Part shown: piece by piece, positions 11,213 to 20,735 of the stretch
How positions within the stretch are numbered: the stretch's first letter is position 1
How the letters are laid out: each line of letters starts with the position of its first letter
IMG/VR virus record: IMGVR_UViG_3300031851_000245
Coordinates: 1-20,735 of that record
DNA length: 20,735 bases
DNA from: a virus
Reading direction: 5' to 3' (one strand)
Translations under genes and position numbers: made by a program
Notes under the pieces: model-generated
The model's database searches: none
What the model saw: the letters and a program-made list of their open reading frames with translations, nothing else
What the model was told of the DNA's origin: nothing

Positions 11213-14200
11213 TTAGTCCGCCATAATAAATGTTAGCCAGGCATGTGTTGACTGACCAAACGTTCTACTGGCTCCTGTTATCGCTTCTGAAACTTTTAAG
11301 TCTATATTTGAAAAACTTCCGAATGCGTTAGGGGAACCTTGTGATCCGCCGCCGTCAATTGTCCTAGTAGTCCAGTCACCACTAACAGCATTAAAGTTAT
11401 ATTTGTTTTGGCTATAGTTATAACCATAAGCCATAATTGCTCCTGGTGGATAACTAAATCCTGTAAATTGTATTTCTACTTCAGCACCTGCGGCACTGGT
11501 AATAGTAGTTGCGTTTATTCCTGATGTAGCATCTGATATACTTGCTAAGTCGCCTGATGTGTTATAGTTTAGTTTTAATCTTTCAACTGCGGCACCTGAG
11601 CCTCCGCCCCCGCCACCGGCTTCACCTTTCTGTCCTTTATCACCTGCTGATCCATTACTACCTGCCGAACCTGCTGGCCCTGTTGCTCCTGCTGGACCTG
11701 TTGGTCCTGCTACTGTTGAAGCCTCTCCTTTTTGTCCTTTATCTCCGTCTGATCCATTTGAACCTGCTGATCCATTTGAACCTGCTGGACCTGTTGCTCC
11801 AGCCTCTCCTTTTTGTCCTTTATCTCCTGTAGGTCCTGTTGGTCCACCTAACTCACCTTTTTGTCCTTTATCACCTGTTGGACCAGTACCACCTGTAGTA
11901 CCCTGAGGACCGTTTGGACCCGTAGCACCTACTGTACCTTGAGCACCAACTTCACCTTTTTGTCCTTGTGAACCTTGCGTACCTGTATTACCTTGTGGAC
12001 CTAATTCACCTTTCTGACCTTTGTCTCCATCATTTCCATCTGAACCATTTGATCCATTTGAACCTGCTGGTCCTTGAGCACCTTTATCTCCCTGTGGACC
12101 TGCTGGTCCTGTATTTCCTTGTGGGCCTTGTGGTCCTACTACAGTACTATCTGCTCCTGCTGGTCCAGTTGCTCCTGTACTTCCTTGTAATCCTTGAGCA
12201 CCAACTTCCCCTTTTTGTCCTTTATCTCCTGCGGTTCCTTGTGGTCCTTGAGCACCAGTGGCTCCTTGTGTTCCTTGTGGACCTGTATCACCGGTAGCAC
12301 CCTTATCTCCTTGTGTGCCACTTGGGCCTGCTACAGCACTTGGTTCACCCTTAGTACCTTTATCTCCAGCATTACCGTCACTACCTGCGGCACCTGTGTT
12401 ACCAATATTACCTTGTGGTCCTGCTGGTCCAGTTGCTCCAGTATCTCCTTTTTGTCCTTGTGGTCCAGTACCGCCATTACTACCTGCGGTTCCTTGTGGT
12501 CCTACTTCACCCTTATCACCCTTGTCGCCGGCACTTCCTGCCGCTCCAGTATCACCTTGTGGGCCTTGTGGTCCAGTACCACCTGCGGCACCTGTTGCTC
12601 CTTGTATTCCTTGAGTACCTTGATCGCCTTTTTGTCCTTTGTCGCCAGCCGGTCCAGTAGCACCTGTACTACCGGCACTTCCTGCCGATCCTGTAGCACC
12701 TGTGGGTCCTGCCGCTCCTACTTCACCCTTTTGTCCTTTTGCTCCATCACTTCCATTGCTACCGTTTGAACCAGCCGCTCCAGGCTCACCTTTCGTTCCT
12801 GATCCTGTGCCTGTAGCATCAATAGTAATTGTACTGCCACTAGCACTAATTGTTGCGTTAGCACCTGCTGTAAATGTTAATGTATCAGTGGGTCCACTAG
12901 CAACTACTGTATTACTACCTGTTACAGCAACGTTTTTAAATACATCACTAGCACCACCGCTACCTGCTCCGCTATTAGTAATAATAACTTTATCGCCGGA
13001 TTGGTCAGTTGTTAATGTAATACCCGAACCTGCCTCAAATGTTAATGTATCTGAAGTAGAGTCTGCTATAATTGTTTGTTGCCCTAGTACAGAAACATTT
13101 TTAAATGATTCTTGTGGCTGGTTAGAATTTGTAATGGTAACTGTATCACCTGTAACTACAGTATCAATACCTGAACCACCGACAATGTTAAATGTATCGT
13201 CTTTGGTACTTGCGGCTGTTGAACCTGTGTCACCTGCTACAGTTTTATAAAATCTTAATGCGTCTACATTACCTGATACTATTGTGTTGACTTCACTCTT
13301 AGTGTATTTGTCAATAGCAGTATCGTCTAGTGTTGCGTCTATAACAACACTATCACTACCAGTATTTGGTGTGAAACTAATGTTAGCACCACTAGTAAAT
13401 GTAATTGTATCCTGATTAGTGTCTGCCGTAATAACAGTACCATCAAAGTTAAAGTTCTTAAATGTACCTGTTATAGCATCAGACTTAGAAATTTGTATTG
13501 TGCTGTTACCAGCATATTGATTTAAACTAATACCTTCGCCACCTTCAAATCTAATTGCTGATGTGGCTGTTGCGGCATTAATTGTGTTGGCTGAACCAAC
13601 TGTATTAACTTGGCTTATAGCATTTTGTAATTGTGCGGCTGATATATTAGCATCAACTTGTGCTTTACTATAAACACTTAAATTTGTTCTTGCTGTTGCG
13701 ACACTGGCTAAATCACTTAGGTTAAGTGTTTTATTTGCCATATTGGCCAATGTAGCATAATCTATATTAGTTCCACTTGTACCAATTCTTAGAGCATAGT
13801 CCGCCGTTCCTTTGAAGTTACTAGCATATATGTTAAGATACTTTTTAGATGTACTACCTATGTCGTACGCCTGAGTAGTATTTGGTGTACTAGAAGCATT
13901 TTTTGGAATATAGTTTGCTAAATTGGCTGTAAGTTCTGCTGGTGATACACCGTCTGTACTTACACTTGTCCATGTAATGTTTCCACTACCATCTGTTTTA
14001 AGAACTTGTCCAGCACTACCATCTGATGTTGGTAAAGTGAAAACGTTAGCAATAGTTAAACTTCTATTACTATTAATTTTTAATGCTGGTGTTGTACTTG
14101 AACTGCTACCAGCATAAAATACAGTACTGTTAGCACTTCTAACTTCTATGTGCCCGTCTGTTGTACTTGTACTTAAAAATAAACTGTGTGCTGATTTAAG

Positions 14201-14683
14201 TTCGATGTCTGTGTTATCGTTAGATCCAATAATGAATCTAGTTTTAGCATCGAAGCCAGCACTTTGTGAATGAATTGGAAAGTTTGCGTTATTGTAAACA
14301 CCAGCATAAGCATCAACATTAGCATTGTCGCCAAAGTTTCTGCCTCTGTATATAAATGAATTTGCGTTTGTGGCTGTTGTTTGTAACGTGCTTGGTAAGG
14401 AATATGCTGTACTTGAAACAGTAATAACATTTGAGGATTCGGTAACTGTAGTAGAACCTGAACCAACAATCTTCTTAAATCTTAGTTGGTCGCCATCCTT
14501 AGCAGAAAATACTCCAATTCCTGATGCCCCTACGTTAGACGCACCACTTACTGCGGCATTGGCGTCTGCGGCTAAACTGTTCTGTGCTACAAAAACACCA
14601 GTACTAGCATCATAGACAAGTATCTGATTATCAGATACACTATCTATATTAAATGTTAAATTATCACCTGTAACGTTTGGCAT
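11213..14683 (-). CDS. Collagen-like tail fibre protein (1156 aa)
   Basis: A 1156-residue fibre in three parts. Residues 1 to about 625 are Ser/Thr/Asn-rich beta repeats, including [17 protein letters not shown] shared with the 461-aa protein and three copies of a FKN(V/F) unit followed by a DTITF or DTLTF strand. Residues about 627-1020 are a long run of Gly-X-Y triplets (near 130) with short breaks at ADSTVV, SAVA and STVA. The octet GDKGQKGE occurs six times exactly, plus variants. Lys-Gly-Glu/Asp triplets stabilise bacterial collagen triple helices without hydroxyproline. A Gly6 hinge leads to a C-terminal head of about 130 residues. A trimeric fibre with a collagen shaft and receptor-facing tip is the natural reading. 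It is transcribed from the late promoter at 14716-14723. Confidence 0.85.
11600..12805 (-). repeat. Collagen Gly-X-Y coding repeat tract
   Basis: About 1.2 kb of 9-base-periodic DNA encoding Gly-X-Y triplets. Copies of the GDKGQKGE block are nearly identical over 24 bases, with scattered third-position changes, so the tract is a natural place for recombination and length variation. Confidence 0.85.
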
Positions 14684-15146: not shown

Positions 15147-15617
15147 CTATACTTGTTCTAACCTCTCCATAAGTCTTTCAGCACGGTTAGTAACTTGCTT
15201 ATGCCACCTACTGTCTCTACCTTCTACTGCGGCAGTTTTCCAATCTTCTTCGATGATTGCGGCATGCATTTTCTTAAACTTACTTAATCGTGTACGACCC
15301 ATGTTAAACATCATGTTAACCAAGATTTGCTGGACTTCGTCGGGTAAGTCTCCAAACACCCCGTCTTCGTATAACAATTCACATTCACTGATTGCTGTGT
15401 CAAGGTCTTTTTCAAAACATTCTTTGACCCTGTCTTCGTCGACCGGCGTTCCAACTGCTTGTCCGTGCTCCGGGTCTGTCTCAAGGACAAGATGCCCGAC
15501 ACCGAATGTTGGGTAGCCAAGGTGGTCAAGGTAGATTTCATTTACTACTCCTTCGTCTATTTTCAGTTGTTCAAATACTGCTTCTCTGTCTAATTTTGTA
15601 TCTCTAAAAAATCCCAT
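15147..15617 (-). CDS. e: T4-type lysozyme / endolysin (GH24)
   Basis: A 156-residue enzyme close to T4 lysozyme (164 aa), which cuts the MurNAc-GlcNAc bond of peptidoglycan. The catalytic triad is intact with the T4 spacing: Glu22 (IDEG), Asp31 (YLDH) and Thr37 (YPTFGVGH). The C-terminal signature DSRWHKQVTNRAERL matches the T4 SRWYNQTPNRAKR region. There is no signal peptide, so it needs a holin for release. The ATG overlaps the stop of the 198-aa gene by one base (TAATG, 15615-15619). It is the last gene of the dnaJ-clpA operon. A near-consensus late element (AATAAATA at 15864-15871) about 250 nt upstream may give late expression. A baseplate gp5 lysozyme is unlikely, as no OB or needle domain is fused. 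Confidence 0.9.
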   Translation of the reverse strand: MGFFRDTKLDREAVFEQLKIDEGVVNEIYLDHLGYPTFGVGHLVLETDPEHGQAVGTPVDEDRVKECFEKDLDTAISECELLYEDGVFGDLPDEVQQILVNMMFNMGRTRLSKFKKMHAAIIEEDWKTAAVEGRDSRWHKQVTNRAERLMERLEQV

Positions 15618-16213
15618 TATGTCTCCATTGTTTCGCTGTATAGTTTACAGACTTTTAATTCTCTTACTGACTCTTGTTTTAGAACCAGTCTTATTTTTGC
15701 TATATCGTGCTTTTCGTTTGTATACAATATGTGTGTATAACCAGACTTGCTACGATGTATTCTATTAGAACCTTGTTTGTATAAATTGGTAATGATGTTT
15801 TGAATTTTCTTATTCTCACTTTCATTATTTCTCCAGTGTTTACTAAGTTCTACCCTGTACCTATATTTATTAAAATATAGTTTCTCTCTACAGTCTAAGT
15901 CGCCTTTCTTCAAGTCTTCCCATATCTCATTATTGTAAGGGGCATAAACTTTTGTTACTATGTCTTCGAAATTGTTTACAAACTTTTCTGCTATATCTAG
16001 TTTGCAAAAGTAAAAACTAAGTTCATTACGTTGTACACAGGTATAATCACTCCAAAGGTCGGGCAAGTTCTTTTCATCATGTAACCACTTAAACAATTCT
16101 TCAAAACGAACTGCGTCGTGGTCCCATTGATTGCCCTTAACAACTACTTTAAATGCGTAATTGTTGTAATAAATTTTTGGTATAGGTTGTACTTCTAAAT
16201 TAACTTTAAGCAT
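15617..16213 (-). CDS. Unknown protein between ClpA and lysozyme
   Basis: A 198-residue basic, aromatic-rich protein (many Tyr, Trp, Asn and Lys) with no signal, TM or recognised motif. Visible landmarks are YNNYAFKVVVKGNQWDHD near the start, a central WEDLKKGDLDCREKLYFNKYRYRVELSKHW, and a basic stretch RIHRSKSGYTHILYTN near 155-170. Its ATG lies inside the end of clpA (8-bp overlap) and its stop overlaps the lysozyme start, so it is translated with both. Because it is joined to clpA it could be an adaptor or substrate of the Clp machine, but this is only a guess from position. Confidence 0.65.
   Translation of the reverse strand: MLKVNLEVQPIPKIYYNNYAFKVVVKGNQWDHDAVRFEELFKWLHDEKNLPDLWSDYTCVQRNELSFYFCKLDIAEKFVNNFEDIVTKVYAPYNNEIWEDLKKGDLDCREKLYFNKYRYRVELSKHWRNNESENKKIQNIITNLYKQGSNRIHRSKSGYTHILYTNEKHDIAKIRLVLKQESVRELKVCKLYSETMET
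15864..15871 (-). promoter_or_regulatory. Possible internal late promoter ahead of lysozyme
   Basis: AATAAATA followed by TAG, one base from the GATAAATA element and with the same TAG continuation as the site at 3731-3738. It lies within the 198-aa gene. AT-richness makes chance matches likely. Confidence 0.3.
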
Positions 16214-18392
16214 TTGGCTCCTGTGGTATAAATTTAATTGTATCTTCTACATAGTCAACTGTGATTACACCGCTTGTAGTTTCTTCAAATAGTATTTGTT
16301 TACTAAGAGGCTTTTTAACTTCTTCTTCAAACAATCTCTTAAGTGGTCTTGCTCCCATTGTAGGGTCATAACCTTTCTCAGCAAGATACTTCTTGGCCGC
16401 GGCAGTAAGTTTAATCTTAATCTTAGTATCGTTTGCCTTAAGTAGTTCATTAGTATCTTTAATTGTTCTAGTAACAATAGACATAATTTCTTTAGGCCCT
16501 AGCACATTAAATCTAATAAATGCGTCAATCCTATTTCTAAACTCTGGTGTAAAAAATTCTTTGGTTGCTTGTATGTCAGCATCGGCATGTGTCTTTTCGC
16601 CAAACCCAATCTTAGCAGTATCTAGTTTTGCGGCACCTAAGTTAGATGTCATTAACAATATAACATTAGTAAAGTCAACAGTTTTGCCTGTGGCACCTGT
16701 AAGTCTACCATCGTCCATTACTTGTAGCAATACCTGTAATACTTCTGGTGCGGCTTTCTCTACTTCATCTAGTAATAAAATACAGTTAGGATTTTTATCT
16801 ACTTCTGATAGCAACATACCTTGACCCATTTCGCCTTCAGCATGTCCTACATATCCAGGAGGAGCACCAATCAGTTTACTTACACTATGTCTTTCCATGT
16901 ACTCAGACATGTCAAAACGTATAAGTTTAACGTCCATTGTTTCTGCTAACTGCTTTGCTGTTTCTGTTTTACCAACACCAGTAGGACCAACAAATAAGAA
17001 ACTACCAATTGGCTTGTTAGTGTCTCTTAGTCCTGCTTTACTTACTAAAATACTTTCTACTAGTTTATCAACTGCCGTGTCTTGTCCAAACACTTTAGAT
17101 TTAATATCTTTATCAAGTGTTTTATATCCTTTGGTGTCTTCGATATCAATAACATCTGCTTTCATCTTAGCAATTTTAGATACTTGCTGTAGTACAGTTT
17201 CCATTGTTACTTCTTTATTTTCTGCTATCTTAGTAACAGCACCGGATGAATCAATAACATCTAATGCTTTATCTGGAAATAATTTATTCTTAATATATCT
17301 GTCGCATAGTTCTACGGACTTTTGTATTAAGTCTTTTGTATATGTAACACCATGGAAGTCTTCGTAATGACTTTGTAGGCCTAAACATATTTTAATTGTG
17401 TCCTTTAATGACGGTTCAAGGATATCTAGTCTTTGGAACCTACGCATTAATGCTCTATCTTTTTCAAAGTTGCTGGCCCATTCATCTGGTGTAGTAGCAC
17501 CTACACATAATAACTTACCTTTGCCTAGCAATGGCTTTAACATGTTGGCGGCATCTACATTACTGCCACCGGCACTACCGGCACCCATTATCATATGTAT
17601 CTCGTCTATAAACAAAATAGCAGTAGGGTCGTTTTCGATTTGTTCAAGTACATTTTTTAAACGTTCTTCAAAGTCTCCTCTGTACTTTGTGCCTGCTAAC
17701 ATTGTAGCAATATCTAATTGGTATACAGTTTTATCTAGTAATATTTTAGGTACATCTTTTTGTACAATTTTATATGCTATGCCTTCAGCAATAGCAGTCT
17801 TACCTACACCTGGCTCACCAACTAAACATACATTGTTCTTTTTACGTCTAGCAAGTACTTCAACAACGTCTGTAACTTCTTCTGCCCTACCTATAAGCGG
17901 ATCAATAGCATTGTTGCCTGCTTCAATGTTTAAGTTTTTAAGGTAGTCTACATCTTCAAAGTCCTCTGATGCCGCACCACTTGATAAATGTTCGATTAGT
18001 TTCTGTCTGTCTAAACCATTAATAGCAATAAAATACTGAGCATGACTTTGCTGTTCGTTAGTAATACTTACAAGTACATCAATTGGATTAATGTTTTCTC
18101 TACCATTAAATATACTTTGTGCGAATGCTCTTTGAAATACACGTTCCACAGCCATTGTCTTTTTAGGATCACCAGTACTACCTGCTTCAGACTTTAAGTT
18201 ATTAAATTCATAGTCCTCTAAATATTGCTGTAGGTCTTTTCTTAAAGTATCCATATCTATTTCTAGTGATGTACATACTTTAATAATCTCTTCTTCTTCT
18301 AAAAGAGCAAGGGCAATATGCTCAATGGTAACGTACTCGTGACCGTAATTAATTGCCTGTGCTACTGAGTTTGCTAAGATTTTATCTATCAT
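16206..18392 (-). CDS. clpA: ClpA-type AAA+ unfoldase
   Basis: A 728-residue protein of full ClpA length (E. coli 758), with all parts present: a Clp N-domain (1-135) and two AAA+ modules. D1 has Walker A GEPGVGKT at 192-199, Walker B LFIDE at 260-264, pore loop KYRG at 236-239 and the Arg-rich RALMRRF at 313-319. D2 has Walker A GPTGVGKT at 469-476, Walker B LLLDE at 539-543, pore loop GYVG at 513-516 and sensor-2 GARPLKR at 680-686. No ClpB-type middle coiled coil is present. IGF at 595-597 corresponds to the IGL/IGF tripeptide that docks ClpP, and no clpP is visible here, so it probably borrows the host protease. It follows dnaJ by 8 nt and overlaps the 198-aa gene. Confidence 0.92.
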   Translation of the reverse strand: MIDKILANSVAQAINYGHEYVTIEHIALALLEEEEIIKVCTSLEIDMDTLRKDLQQYLEDYEFNNLKSEAGSTGDPKKTMAVERVFQRAFAQSIFNGRENINPIDVLVSITNEQQSHAQYFIAINGLDRQKLIEHLSSGAASEDFEDVDYLKNLNIEAGNNAIDPLIGRAEEVTDVVEVLARRKKNNVCLVGEPGVGKTAIAEGIAYKIVQKDVPKILLDKTVYQLDIATMLAGTKYRGDFEERLKNVLEQIENDPTAILFIDEIHMIMGAGSAGGSNVDAANMLKPLLGKGKLLCVGATTPDEWASNFEKDRALMRRFQRLDILEPSLKDTIKICLGLQSHYEDFHGVTYTKDLIQKSVELCDRYIKNKLFPDKALDVIDSSGAVTKIAENKEVTMETVLQQVSKIAKMKADVIDIEDTKGYKTLDKDIKSKVFGQDTAVDKLVESILVSKAGLRDTNKPIGSFLFVGPTGVGKTETAKQLAETMDVKLIRFDMSEYMERHSVSKLIGAPPGYVGHAEGEMGQGMLLSEVDKNPNCILLLDEVEKAAPEVLQVLLQVMDDGRLTGATGKTVDFTNVILLMTSNLGAAKLDTAKIGFGEKTHADADIQATKEFFTPEFRNRIDAFIRFNVLGPKEIMSIVTRTIKDTNELLKANDTKIKIKLTAAAKKYLAEKGYDPTMGARPLKRLFEEEVKKPLSKQILFEETTSGVITVDYVEDTIKFIPQEPNA

Positions 18393-18400
18393 AATACTAT

Positions 18401-19207
18401 TTAACTTTTACGTTTTCTCTCCTGTTGAATTTGTTGTAACATTTTTTTATGCTGTGGTGATAAGTCATCTGGTACAGATACTTTTACTAAAATTATAAAA
18501 TCTCCTACTATACTAGAATGAGCATTTGTAAATCCTTGACCTCTTAATTTAAGTTTAGCATCTGACTCTGTGCCTGGCGGTATAGATACATTTAATTGCT
18601 TACCTGATATATGTTGTACTACTACAGTTGTACCAAGGATAGCATTTATGTAATCAACTTCAATTGCTCCTATTAAATTAATACCATCTCTGCCAAATGT
18701 ATTATGAGGCATTACATTTATTCTTACCCTAAGATCACCTGATGGTAAACTAGGATCTTGTTTAGGTGCCTTGCCAGGTATATTGTAAACAGTACCCGGC
18801 TTTATGCCAGTAGGTACTTGTACTTCAATAGGACCTGTGCCTACATCAATTTGTCTCTTGGCACCAAAGTAAACATCTTCTAGTGAAATGTTTAGTTGTG
18901 TTTCAGCATTAAAGTTTTGCGGTCTTCTTTGTTGCTGTCTGCTAAACATATCGCCAAATATATCAGCAAAAGGATTACCTCTGCCAGCAAATGGATCGCC
19001 GCCCTGCTGTCTAAAAGGATTAGGATTATCGTATTCGTATTTTTTATCTGCGTCGCTTAGTGTTTCATATGCTCGTTGGATTTCTTTAAACTTTTCTGGA
19101 TCACCACCTTTGTCAGGGTGATGTTTACTCGCAAGTTTACGATATGCTTTTTTTATTTCGTCTGGTGTAGTGGTATGATTAACACCAAGTATTTCGTAGT
19201 AATCCAT
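18401..19207 (-). CDS. dnaJ: DnaJ-family co-chaperone, class B (CbpA-like)
   Basis: A 268-residue J-protein. The J domain (2-60) has the HPD that triggers Hsp70 ATP hydrolysis at residues 30-32. A Gly/Phe-rich linker (61-96, with [11 protein letters not shown]) follows. Then come two C-terminal substrate-binding beta domains (about 97-175, opening [16 protein letters not shown], and 176-250). The Cys-rich zinc finger of true DnaJ is absent, so it is class B. The start is anchored by the conserved MDYYEILGV. The -10 box of its promoter ends 6 nt before this ATG, which predicts leaderless mRNA. It heads the operon with clpA, the 198-aa gene and lysozyme. No dnaK is seen, so it must work with host DnaK, perhaps feeding clients to phage assembly or to ClpA. 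Confidence 0.93.
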
Positions 19208-19242: not shown

Positions 19243-19653
19243 TTAATCTGTATCAGAAAGGTTGTCAAGGAAGGCACTTAATGATGATTTAGTTTCAGAT
19301 TTAGTCTGCTCTCCCTCGTAATATTTTTTATATTGCTCTAATTGGAATCTTAATTTCTGTATTTGCTTGTTATTTAACTGCATATTGTACTGTAGTTGTT
19401 GCCAGCCTAAGTCAGTAAACCCAAATACTACAGGATCAATTCCTTCTTCTTCAAGTCTAGCAAACACTTCTTTTTGATTCTTGCTTGTGATAACTATAAC
19501 TTCTATCTTATTCATTGTTTCAACAGTAATAGGATCTAAGTTAAGTTTTTCTCTTTCTACTTCAGTAGTAAAAATTTCTATTGGCTTGACGCCCATTGAT
19601 GAACAGCCTGTGATTAACATTACTAATATGATTGGTGCTAATAGTTTTTTCAT
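19243..19653 (-). CDS. Outer-membrane lipoprotein, o-spanin candidate
   Basis: A 136-residue lipoprotein. A lipoprotein signal with basic start and hydrophobic core ends in the lipobox LITGC (13-17); Cys17 would be lipidated, and Ser18 at +2 favours the outer membrane. The mature part has a small domain (VEVIVITSKNQKEVFARL-like, about 50-85) and a Gln/Lys-rich helix (about 88-115, LNNKQIQKLRFQLEQYKKYY). It follows the membrane coiled-coil gene with a TAATG overlap (19651-19655), the Rz/Rz1 arrangement of spanins, which fuse inner and outer membranes at lysis. It is longer than lambda Rz1. I recall similar lipoprotein and membrane pairs in marine phages. A virion-linked lipoprotein is the main alternative. 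Confidence 0.65.
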   Translation of the reverse strand: MKKLLAPIILVMLITGCSSMGVKPIEIFTTEVEREKLNLDPITVETMNKIEVIVITSKNQKEVFARLEEEGIDPVVFGFTDLGWQQLQYNMQLNNKQIQKLRFQLEQYKKYYEGEQTKSETKSSLSAFLDNLSDTD

Positions 19654-20141
19654 TAGTTACCCTCGTAATTGGGATTGGCACTCGGTGAACATATTGCGTT
19701 GTAGCCTGGGTCTGTTTTTAACTTAACTGCTTTCTCTTCTTCAGTAAGTGGACTACCCTGTGCTATTTCATTACAACGAATTTGGTTGTTCATATCATTA
19801 TTTAATATTCGCTCTACACTCATAGGACGATTTGCGGCTAGGTCACCTAAGTCTCTGACCTTACCGTCTGCGTTTGTTTTATTGAATCTTGTTTCTAAGA
19901 ACTTTCTTTCTCTTTCTAGTCGAGCATTCTCATTTTGTAACTCAGCATACATTTTCTTTTGTGCTTCGAAGTCTTGCTCACGTTGAGCCATTAGTTTCTT
20001 TTGTTCTTCGATACCTGTTTCGAGTTTGGCATTGTTAGCCTCTGATATGGCTAGGTTGGCTTGTAAGTTTTTAACATAAAGGAAACCACCACCGGCTACG
20101 CCGAGGGCAAGTAACATTAATATTAACTTAATTTTGAACAT
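19653..20141 (-). CDS. Membrane-anchored coiled-coil protein, i-spanin candidate
   Basis: A 162-residue protein with an N-terminal TM anchor (about 5-23, KLILMLLALGVAGGGFLYV), then a Glu/Gln/Lys-rich coiled coil (about 25-90), then a C-terminal segment (KVRDLGDLAANRPMSVERILNN and IRCNEIAQGSPLTEEE) with Cys123 and Cys151. One N-terminal TM and a periplasmic coiled coil are the hallmarks of i-spanins (Rz). The next gene is a lipoprotein overlapping by one base. The first 14 bases overlap the end of the ACP-like gene. In lysis the pair would bridge the periplasm after lysozyme has removed the wall. The assignment rests on architecture and pairing, not on a recognised family. Confidence 0.65.
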   Translation of the reverse strand: MFKIKLILMLLALGVAGGGFLYVKNLQANLAISEANNAKLETGIEEQKKLMAQREQDFEAQKKMYAELQNENARLERERKFLETRFNKTNADGKVRDLGDLAANRPMSVERILNNDMNNQIRCNEIAQGSPLTEEEKAVKLKTDPGYNAICSPSANPNYEGN

Positions 20142-20358
20142 TATGCTTCTCTACTAGGTCTAAAACTTGTTGAACAGTTTGTACATCAAAAGTTTCTTCT
20201 TCCGGAATAGTTATTCCTAGTTTTTCTTCAAGTTGCATGAAGATATCAACTACGTCTAACTCGTCCGCGCCTAGGTCATTAAGCATATTTGTCTCAGGTA
20301 ATATTTCCTTGTTTCGACCGAAATGGCCTTTTAAAATGTCTAAAACTGTGTCATTCAT
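20128..20358 (-). CDS. Acyl-carrier-protein homologue lacking the phosphopantetheine serine
   Basis: A 76-residue, strongly acidic four-helix protein with the ACP pattern. The conserved loop reads LGADELDVVDIFMQLEEKLGI; in active ACPs this is GADSLDxVE, with the Ser of DSL carrying the 4'-phosphopantetheine arm. Here that position is Glu33 (codon GAG), not Ser. The sequence elsewhere (IPEEETFDVQTVQQVLDLV) is intact, so the fold is probably kept but the protein cannot be charged in the usual way. It may bind ACP partners such as host fatty-acid or lipid A enzymes without carrying a chain. It lies in an operon with the spanin candidates: its ATG overlaps the stop of the gene upstream (TAATG), and its end overlaps the next gene by 14 bp. 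Confidence 0.8.
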   Translation of the reverse strand: MNDTVLDILKGHFGRNKEILPETNMLNDLGADELDVVDIFMQLEEKLGITIPEEETFDVQTVQQVLDLVEKHNVQN

Positions 20359-20735
20359 TATATTTTCTTTAGTAATAATACTTTATCACTATTCTCTTTT
20401 GTTATGGTAAATCTTTGGTCGCTAAAGTTATTAACAGTATAAAACTTACCTAAGCATCTTTCTAAAAATATATCTTCAGTTGTTCTATCTAATATAGGCT
20501 CCTGTGATATATCTTCCATTATGCCTTGGTCACCAAAGTTAACGAGTTCATAGTTAAAACTTTTACGTCCGTTGTTAATGGTAATTATATTGCTTTCTTC
20601 ACTTTCGTCAAGTGTAACATTAGAAATTAAACTTTCTAAGAAAAAGTTTCCTATGTTATTATTGTACTCGTTCTTTTCTTCTTTCATTTTATTCTCTTTG
20701 AATTCTTCTCTACTAACATACTTATCTGGGTCTGT
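20358..20735 (-). CDS. Unknown protein, 5' end probably beyond the window
   Basis: At least 109 residues from an ATG at 20687. The frame stays open through 16 more codons to the window edge (beginning TDPDKYVSREEF), with no Met among them, and the ATG at 20687 has only a weak AGAG before it, so the true start is probably outside. The product is acidic and Asn-rich, and I do not recognise it. The middle has a short beta-like region (NIITINNGRKSFNYELVNFG), and the end (KFYTVNNFSDQRFTITK, then VLLLKKI) looks like a closing beta hairpin. It is co-transcribed with the ACP-like and spanin-like genes, linked by TAATG at 20356-20360. Confidence 0.55.
   Translation of the reverse strand, partial: TDPDKYVSREEFKENKMKEEKNEYNNNIGNFFLESLISNVTLDESEESNIITINNGRKSFNYELVNFGDQGIMEDISQEPILDRTTEDIFLERCLGKFYTVNNFSDQRFTITKENSDKVLLLKKI

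Follow-up and report, generated by a model that had tools for sequence, protein, structure and literature searches.

A phage gene for an acyl carrier protein (ACP) is usually annotated as an auxiliary metabolic gene, one that would feed host fatty-acid synthesis. The ACP fold also serves as a subunit of larger assemblies, as in the mitochondrial iron-sulphur (ISD11) and MmpL5-AcpM complexes. Phage ACPs such as those of P-HM1, Erythrobacter phage R6L, Xanthomonas phage XF1 and Brevundimonas phage Bajun are homologues comparable to the protein described here, but all of them keep the serine. An ACP that cannot carry is represented by a laboratory mutant, the obligate apo-ACP of S. elongatus (Ser39Ala), whose overexpression suppresses the growth of E. 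coli (PMC4736557); likewise, apo-ACP in excess inhibits the E. coli glycerol-3-phosphate acyltransferase (PMC4736557, PMC3896788). Our literature searches found no paper describing a serine-less phage ACP beside a spanin. Here we analyze such a gene in a viral DNA stretch of 20,735 nucleotides (IMG/VR record IMGVR_UViG_3300031851_000245; hereafter the window). The lineage that holds it and its acidic relatives is that of marine T4-like large phages.

An ACP homologue without its attachment serine

The protein encoded by the ACP-like gene of the window (Table 1) matches the PP-binding profile PF00550 at 36.9 bits (cut-off 20.8) and phrog_5934, 'acyl carrier protein', at 55.4 bits. A profile of the family of its acidic relatives recovered dozens of ACPs as the top matches among solved structures (best E 3e-14). 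The AF2 model of the window protein (pLDDT 89.6, pTM 0.80) has the helical ACP fold, and Foldseek matched it to solved ACPs at a TM of about 0.8. A divergent acidic sub-clade (L090, L092, L113, L148), found in the same gene block, yielded an ACP model with a pLDDT of 96.3, and both sub-clades model as ACPs with TM values of about 0.8-0.95 to solved ones. The ACP homology proposed in the initial annotation is therefore well above chance by Pfam, PHROG, profile and structural searches, and the window protein is a member of the ACP sequence and fold family. It resembles bacterial AcpP (PF00550) in size, in the helical fold, in the GAD-x-LD entry to helix II, and in the acidic recognition face and high negative charge common to both. 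In contrast to AcpP, however, its family has Glu or Asp in place of the attachment Ser, often shows Phe or Ile for the Leu of the DSL motif, and is encoded, in the window, in a phage lysis/structural operon with no fab cluster nearby.

When aligned on the E. coli serine, the site in the window protein reads LGAD-E-LDVVDIF as against LGAD-S-LDTVELV; around Glu33 the sequence is LGADELDVVDIF, as against LGADSLDxVEL in bacterial ACPs. The Ser-to-Glu replacement at the 4'-phosphopantetheine position that had been read from the GAG codon is thus borne out, and, since the test for the defining Ser showed it to be missing, the protein falls outside the functional acyl carrier class. Moreover, no Ser occurs anywhere in its 76 residues, so no nearby Ser can hold the arm.

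The face by which ACPs recognize their partners had a different fate. Asp32, Asp35 and Asp38 of the window protein correspond to E. coli Asp35, Asp38 and Glu41, and across the 40 distinct proteins of the acidic family the first two positions are always Asp and the third is always Asp or Glu, i.e. the acidic helix II used for partner recognition is present throughout. The equivalents of E. coli L32 and V65 are also invariant, while Phe or Ile predominates at L37 of the DSL motif, and Thr or Glu at the pocket residue A59. The earlier statement that the rest of the helix II pattern is kept is thus supported for the partner-binding helix; the Leu of DSL is changed in most members of the family. 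Judged by these residues, the acidic family appears to have kept the surface of an ACP but not its carrier chemistry.

Table 1. The ACP-like gene of the window, its key site and the neighbouring genes.
Feature	Positions	Strand	Basis or remark
Virion structural protein, 3' part (cluster c4, phrog_13138)	20358..20735	minus	cut by window end
ACP-like protein gene, 76 aa	20128..20358	minus	ATG start; no Ser; Pfam/PHROG/AF2
Codon 33, GAG = Glu, at the phosphopantetheine Ser position (E. coli AcpP Ser36)	20260..20262	minus	
Recognition helix II, residues 33-47 in the model	20218..20262	minus	AF2 model
Rz-like inner-membrane spanin, 162 aa	19653..20141	minus	PHROG match; N-terminal hydrophobic stretch, then long polar/coiled region
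Lipoprotein, 136 aa, lipobox LITGC, probable outer-membrane spanin partner	19243..19653	minus	sequence
DnaJ-type co-chaperone	18401..19207	minus	same orientation
ClpA-type AAA+ unfoldase	16206..18392	minus	
Phage lysozyme (endolysin or tail lysozyme)	15147..15617	minus	

Fixation of the acidic residue

The two nearest relatives, from other metagenomes and 89% and 76% identical to the window protein, both have Asp at the site. A scan with two motifs that do not touch it (PETNMLN and IPEEETF) recovered 29 loci, with Glu or Asp in every one. The downstream spanin gene provides a bait that is blind to the ACP site: it recovered 80 viral loci, 52 of which encode an ACP-like protein. In 50 of the 80 this gene lies immediately upstream of the spanin gene, at a spacing from an overlap of 13 nt to a gap of 12 nt, and without exception these 50 encode Glu or Asp at the site. 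The two others (L100 and L101) have Pro, and their ACP gene is found about 0.6 kb downstream, beyond the end of the spanin gene. An ACP gene was not detectable in the remaining 28 loci, and wherever the upstream gene was examined among these it was a small zinc-ribbon-like ORF with a CxNCG..C signature or an endolysin. As some of the 80 loci are near-copies from related metagenomes, we counted distinct acidic-family proteins (n=40), which comprise 21 with Glu, 18 with Asp and one with Pro. Two motif scans, including one of 84,980 genomes considered below, used patterns that demand Glu or Asp and are not counted as evidence on the site; the Ser-type pattern in turn partly demands Ser, and its ratio of 79 Ser to one Thr gives a rough contrast only. 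That Thr belongs to a phage ACP of the Ser-type group (L305, AADTLDVVEL). The loss of Ser is thus fixed among the homologues, and close relatives that all bear Ser, the outcome set beforehand as contrary to the initial annotation, were not what we found.

In a maximum-likelihood tree computed with the site masked, the acidic and the Ser-bearing proteins are split by a single change (support 90/89); at least seven interchanges between Glu and Asp and no reversion to Ser are seen thereafter. The alignment has only 75 columns and long branches occur, and the deep forks are accordingly weak. All four codons for the two residues are in use (GAA 15, GAT 10, GAC 10, GAG 8), and dN/dS between the window gene and its nearest relative is 0.062 at a dS of 0.92; only this close pair was used, the all-pairs median of 0.47 being set aside as unreliable because most pairs are near saturation. 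Together, the repeated Glu/Asp swaps, the use of four codons and the low dN/dS indicate that acidity at the site is under selection; as read from these sequence comparisons, the pattern is one of constraint on acidity and not of drift.

A conserved lysis and structural gene block

The presence of lysis-type genes beside the ORF, also claimed initially, is upheld by the adjoining Rz-like spanin and lipobox lipoprotein, which may together form a two-component spanin (a PHROG match to Rz-like spanins and a lipobox in the next gene). The genes are tightly packed: the c4 and ACP-like genes share 1 nt (TAATG, with the ACP start on the upstream stop), the 3' end of the ACP-like gene covers the spanin start by 14 nt, and the spanin and lipoprotein genes overlap by 1 nt, which suggests translational coupling. 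Across 21 representatives the order is PhoH, c6, c4, (endolysin), ACP-like, Rz-like spanin and, later, DnaJ and ClpA. The spanin adjoins the ACP-like gene in all 21, PhoH is present in 20 of them in reverse orientation, and c6 and c4 are both virion structural proteins by PHROG; in the window contig the PhoH and c6 positions fall beyond the window end. A GH19-like/peptidoglycan-binding endolysin precedes the ACP-like gene in one clade. Pseudomonas phage PA5oct has the backbone PhoH-c6-c4-DnaJ-ClpA without the ACP and the spanin, and the lysis block may therefore have been inserted into an older structural/chaperone neighbourhood.

Several further features of these loci deserve mention. The ClpA-type unfoldase follows DnaJ in the window, and both occur in this block in PA5oct too; no ClpP was seen in the window. 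One sub-clade hints at late expression of the gene: a T4-type late promoter motif, TATAAATA, is found there 36 nt ahead of the start of the ACP-like gene (L071:5956, L074:5950, L081:5950). An ORF of 46-70 aa with a zinc-ribbon-like CxNCG...C pattern (e.g. CQNCGRxHEGRLIETFTDGDGKPIEIVVC) occupies or just precedes the ACP-like slot in certain loci (L092:2143-2286, L113:2159-2302, L115:2101-2259) and, in many of L102-L137, is found upstream of the spanin. Elsewhere in the window (11213-14683) a protein of 1156 aa with seven collagen triple-helix stretches (PF01391, E 3e-50) is probably a tail fibre.

Ser-bearing and other phage ACPs

Sister marine phages (L181, L183, L192, L197, L208, with L199 and L230 assigned by position) encode a Ser-bearing ACP, in the order c6, c4, a different inner-membrane spanin, a different lipoprotein, the ACP, DnaJ and ClpA. 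Their ACP (as in L181, L183, L192 and L208) thus has the spanin pair on one side and DnaJ on the other, in the genome block shared with the window family; however, it follows a different spanin pair, whereas the gene of the window family precedes and overlaps its own spanin gene (c2). The two arrangements imply that the association of ACP with spanins is twofold in this lineage, once with Ser and once without. Vibrio phage 277E43-1 encodes a 177 aa protein whose N-terminal ACP domain, like the window family, is devoid of the Ser and has Asn instead (L250, OX241464.1 53589-54122, FDNLD). Unlike the window family it is a single case, longer and in another context. A relative of it from phage P018-4 (28% identical) has the Ser, and the Asn may represent a second, independent loss of Ser among phage ACPs.

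A tblastn search of 50,697 phage records with three family members recovered no acidic relatives, only unrelated ACPs. The pattern scan of 84,980 bacterial and archaeal genomes likewise found none, its single match being a normal fab-cluster AcpP with Ser. Pelagibacter phage HTVC008M and Vibrio phages Va1 and phiKT1024, which have spanin homologues, show no PP-binding domain anywhere, and each acidic contig has only one. The contigs of L197 and L248 show a second, weak PP-binding match (G027:103138-103266, G031:50709-50837) in a 417-codon frame with one TAG. A search for ACP synthase (PF01648) in 22 contigs, all of them fragments, gave no match, which says little since host enzymes could serve.

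Functional interpretation

Several readings would leave the protein an ordinary carrier or no functional protein at all. A sequencing or assembly error that makes an ordinary DSL ACP appear to have Glu is refuted: no point in its favour was found, independent metagenome contigs at 89%, 76% and lower identity carry Asp or Glu, and the change from Ser to Glu takes more than one base. The PF00550 match and the ACP fold might be taken to mean an acyl carrier with its arm on another residue, but neither the window protein nor its 89% relative contains a single Ser, and the commonest Ser column is filled in only 45% of the family and lies before helix II, leading us to reject this option as wholly improbable. 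A decaying, functionless remnant of a once working phage ACP could account for the lost Ser and the altered Leu of DSL, and is largely refuted and very improbable, given that the acidic residue was held through at least seven Glu/Asp swaps, the low dN/dS, some 40 distinct proteins in which ORF and fold are intact, and a spanin adjacency kept across divergent genomes.

A more serious contender is that the ACP fold has been reused as a small acidic adaptor or structural subunit for the phage spanin, a virion protein, DnaJ or ClpA. The fixed adjacency to spanin and virion genes with short overlaps, the occurrence of DnaJ and ClpA later in the same block, and the presence among the Foldseek matches of ACPs acting as complex subunits all speak for it. 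It nevertheless appears somewhat unlikely: 28 of the 80 spanin loci have no detectable ACP gene, meaning that the spanins can function without the ACP; the sister phages that keep a Ser-bearing ACP have different spanins; and ACP partners account better for the retention of an acidic, host-type recognition face. The short predicted cytoplasmic tail of the inner-membrane spanin also makes direct contact between the two not obvious.

The permanent replacement of the attachment Ser by an acidic residue indicates that the protein probably acts by binding other proteins and not by carrying fatty acids. We accordingly favor, as the probable reading, a carrier-dead ACP that acts through protein binding in the late or lysis programme. 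The carboxylate would imitate the negatively charged phosphate of phosphopantetheine, or else the apo state, such that the acidic ACP docks on ACP partners and delivers nothing; perhaps it is a permanent mimic of apo-ACP and jams lipid enzymes of the host. In related phages a Ser-bearing ACP lies beside the spanins, and the arm may therefore have been used in the ancestral role.

The S. elongatus mutant is the nearest parallel in being carrier-dead, although it is a laboratory construct with Ala, whereas the window family is natural, fixed and acidic. From the effects of apo-ACP in E. coli, a natural apo-ACP mimic would plausibly hit envelope lipid synthesis late in infection. As specific targets, host acyl-ACP users of that pathway (glycerol-3-phosphate acyltransferase or lipid A enzymes) can be put forward tentatively; their inhibition would hold back membrane repair and growth at a late stage, helping the spanins to complete lysis. 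Of the other targets suggested initially, SpoT is weakened and now unlikely, being reported in a review not to bind apo-ACP (PMC3896788), and AcpS is a poorer candidate because the Ser and, in most members, the Leu of DSL are altered.

What sets the acidic family apart is that the sole residue permitting the carrier job is gone, and yet selection acts on the protein and its gene is linked to lysis genes. With the carrier residue lost family-wide, the automatic annotation 'acyl carrier protein' misleads when applied to these phages. Blocking ACP-dependent enzymes would be one ready use for a natural carrier-dead ACP; asking which ACP contacts matter without the arm would be another. It is conceivable, though somewhat doubtful, that a captured ACP was turned into a decoy, co-translated with the spanins and blocking host acyl-ACP-dependent envelope synthesis at lysis. 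If so, the decoy ACP would join holin, endolysin and spanins as a hitherto unrecognised fourth element of the lysis cassette in a large marine phage lineage.
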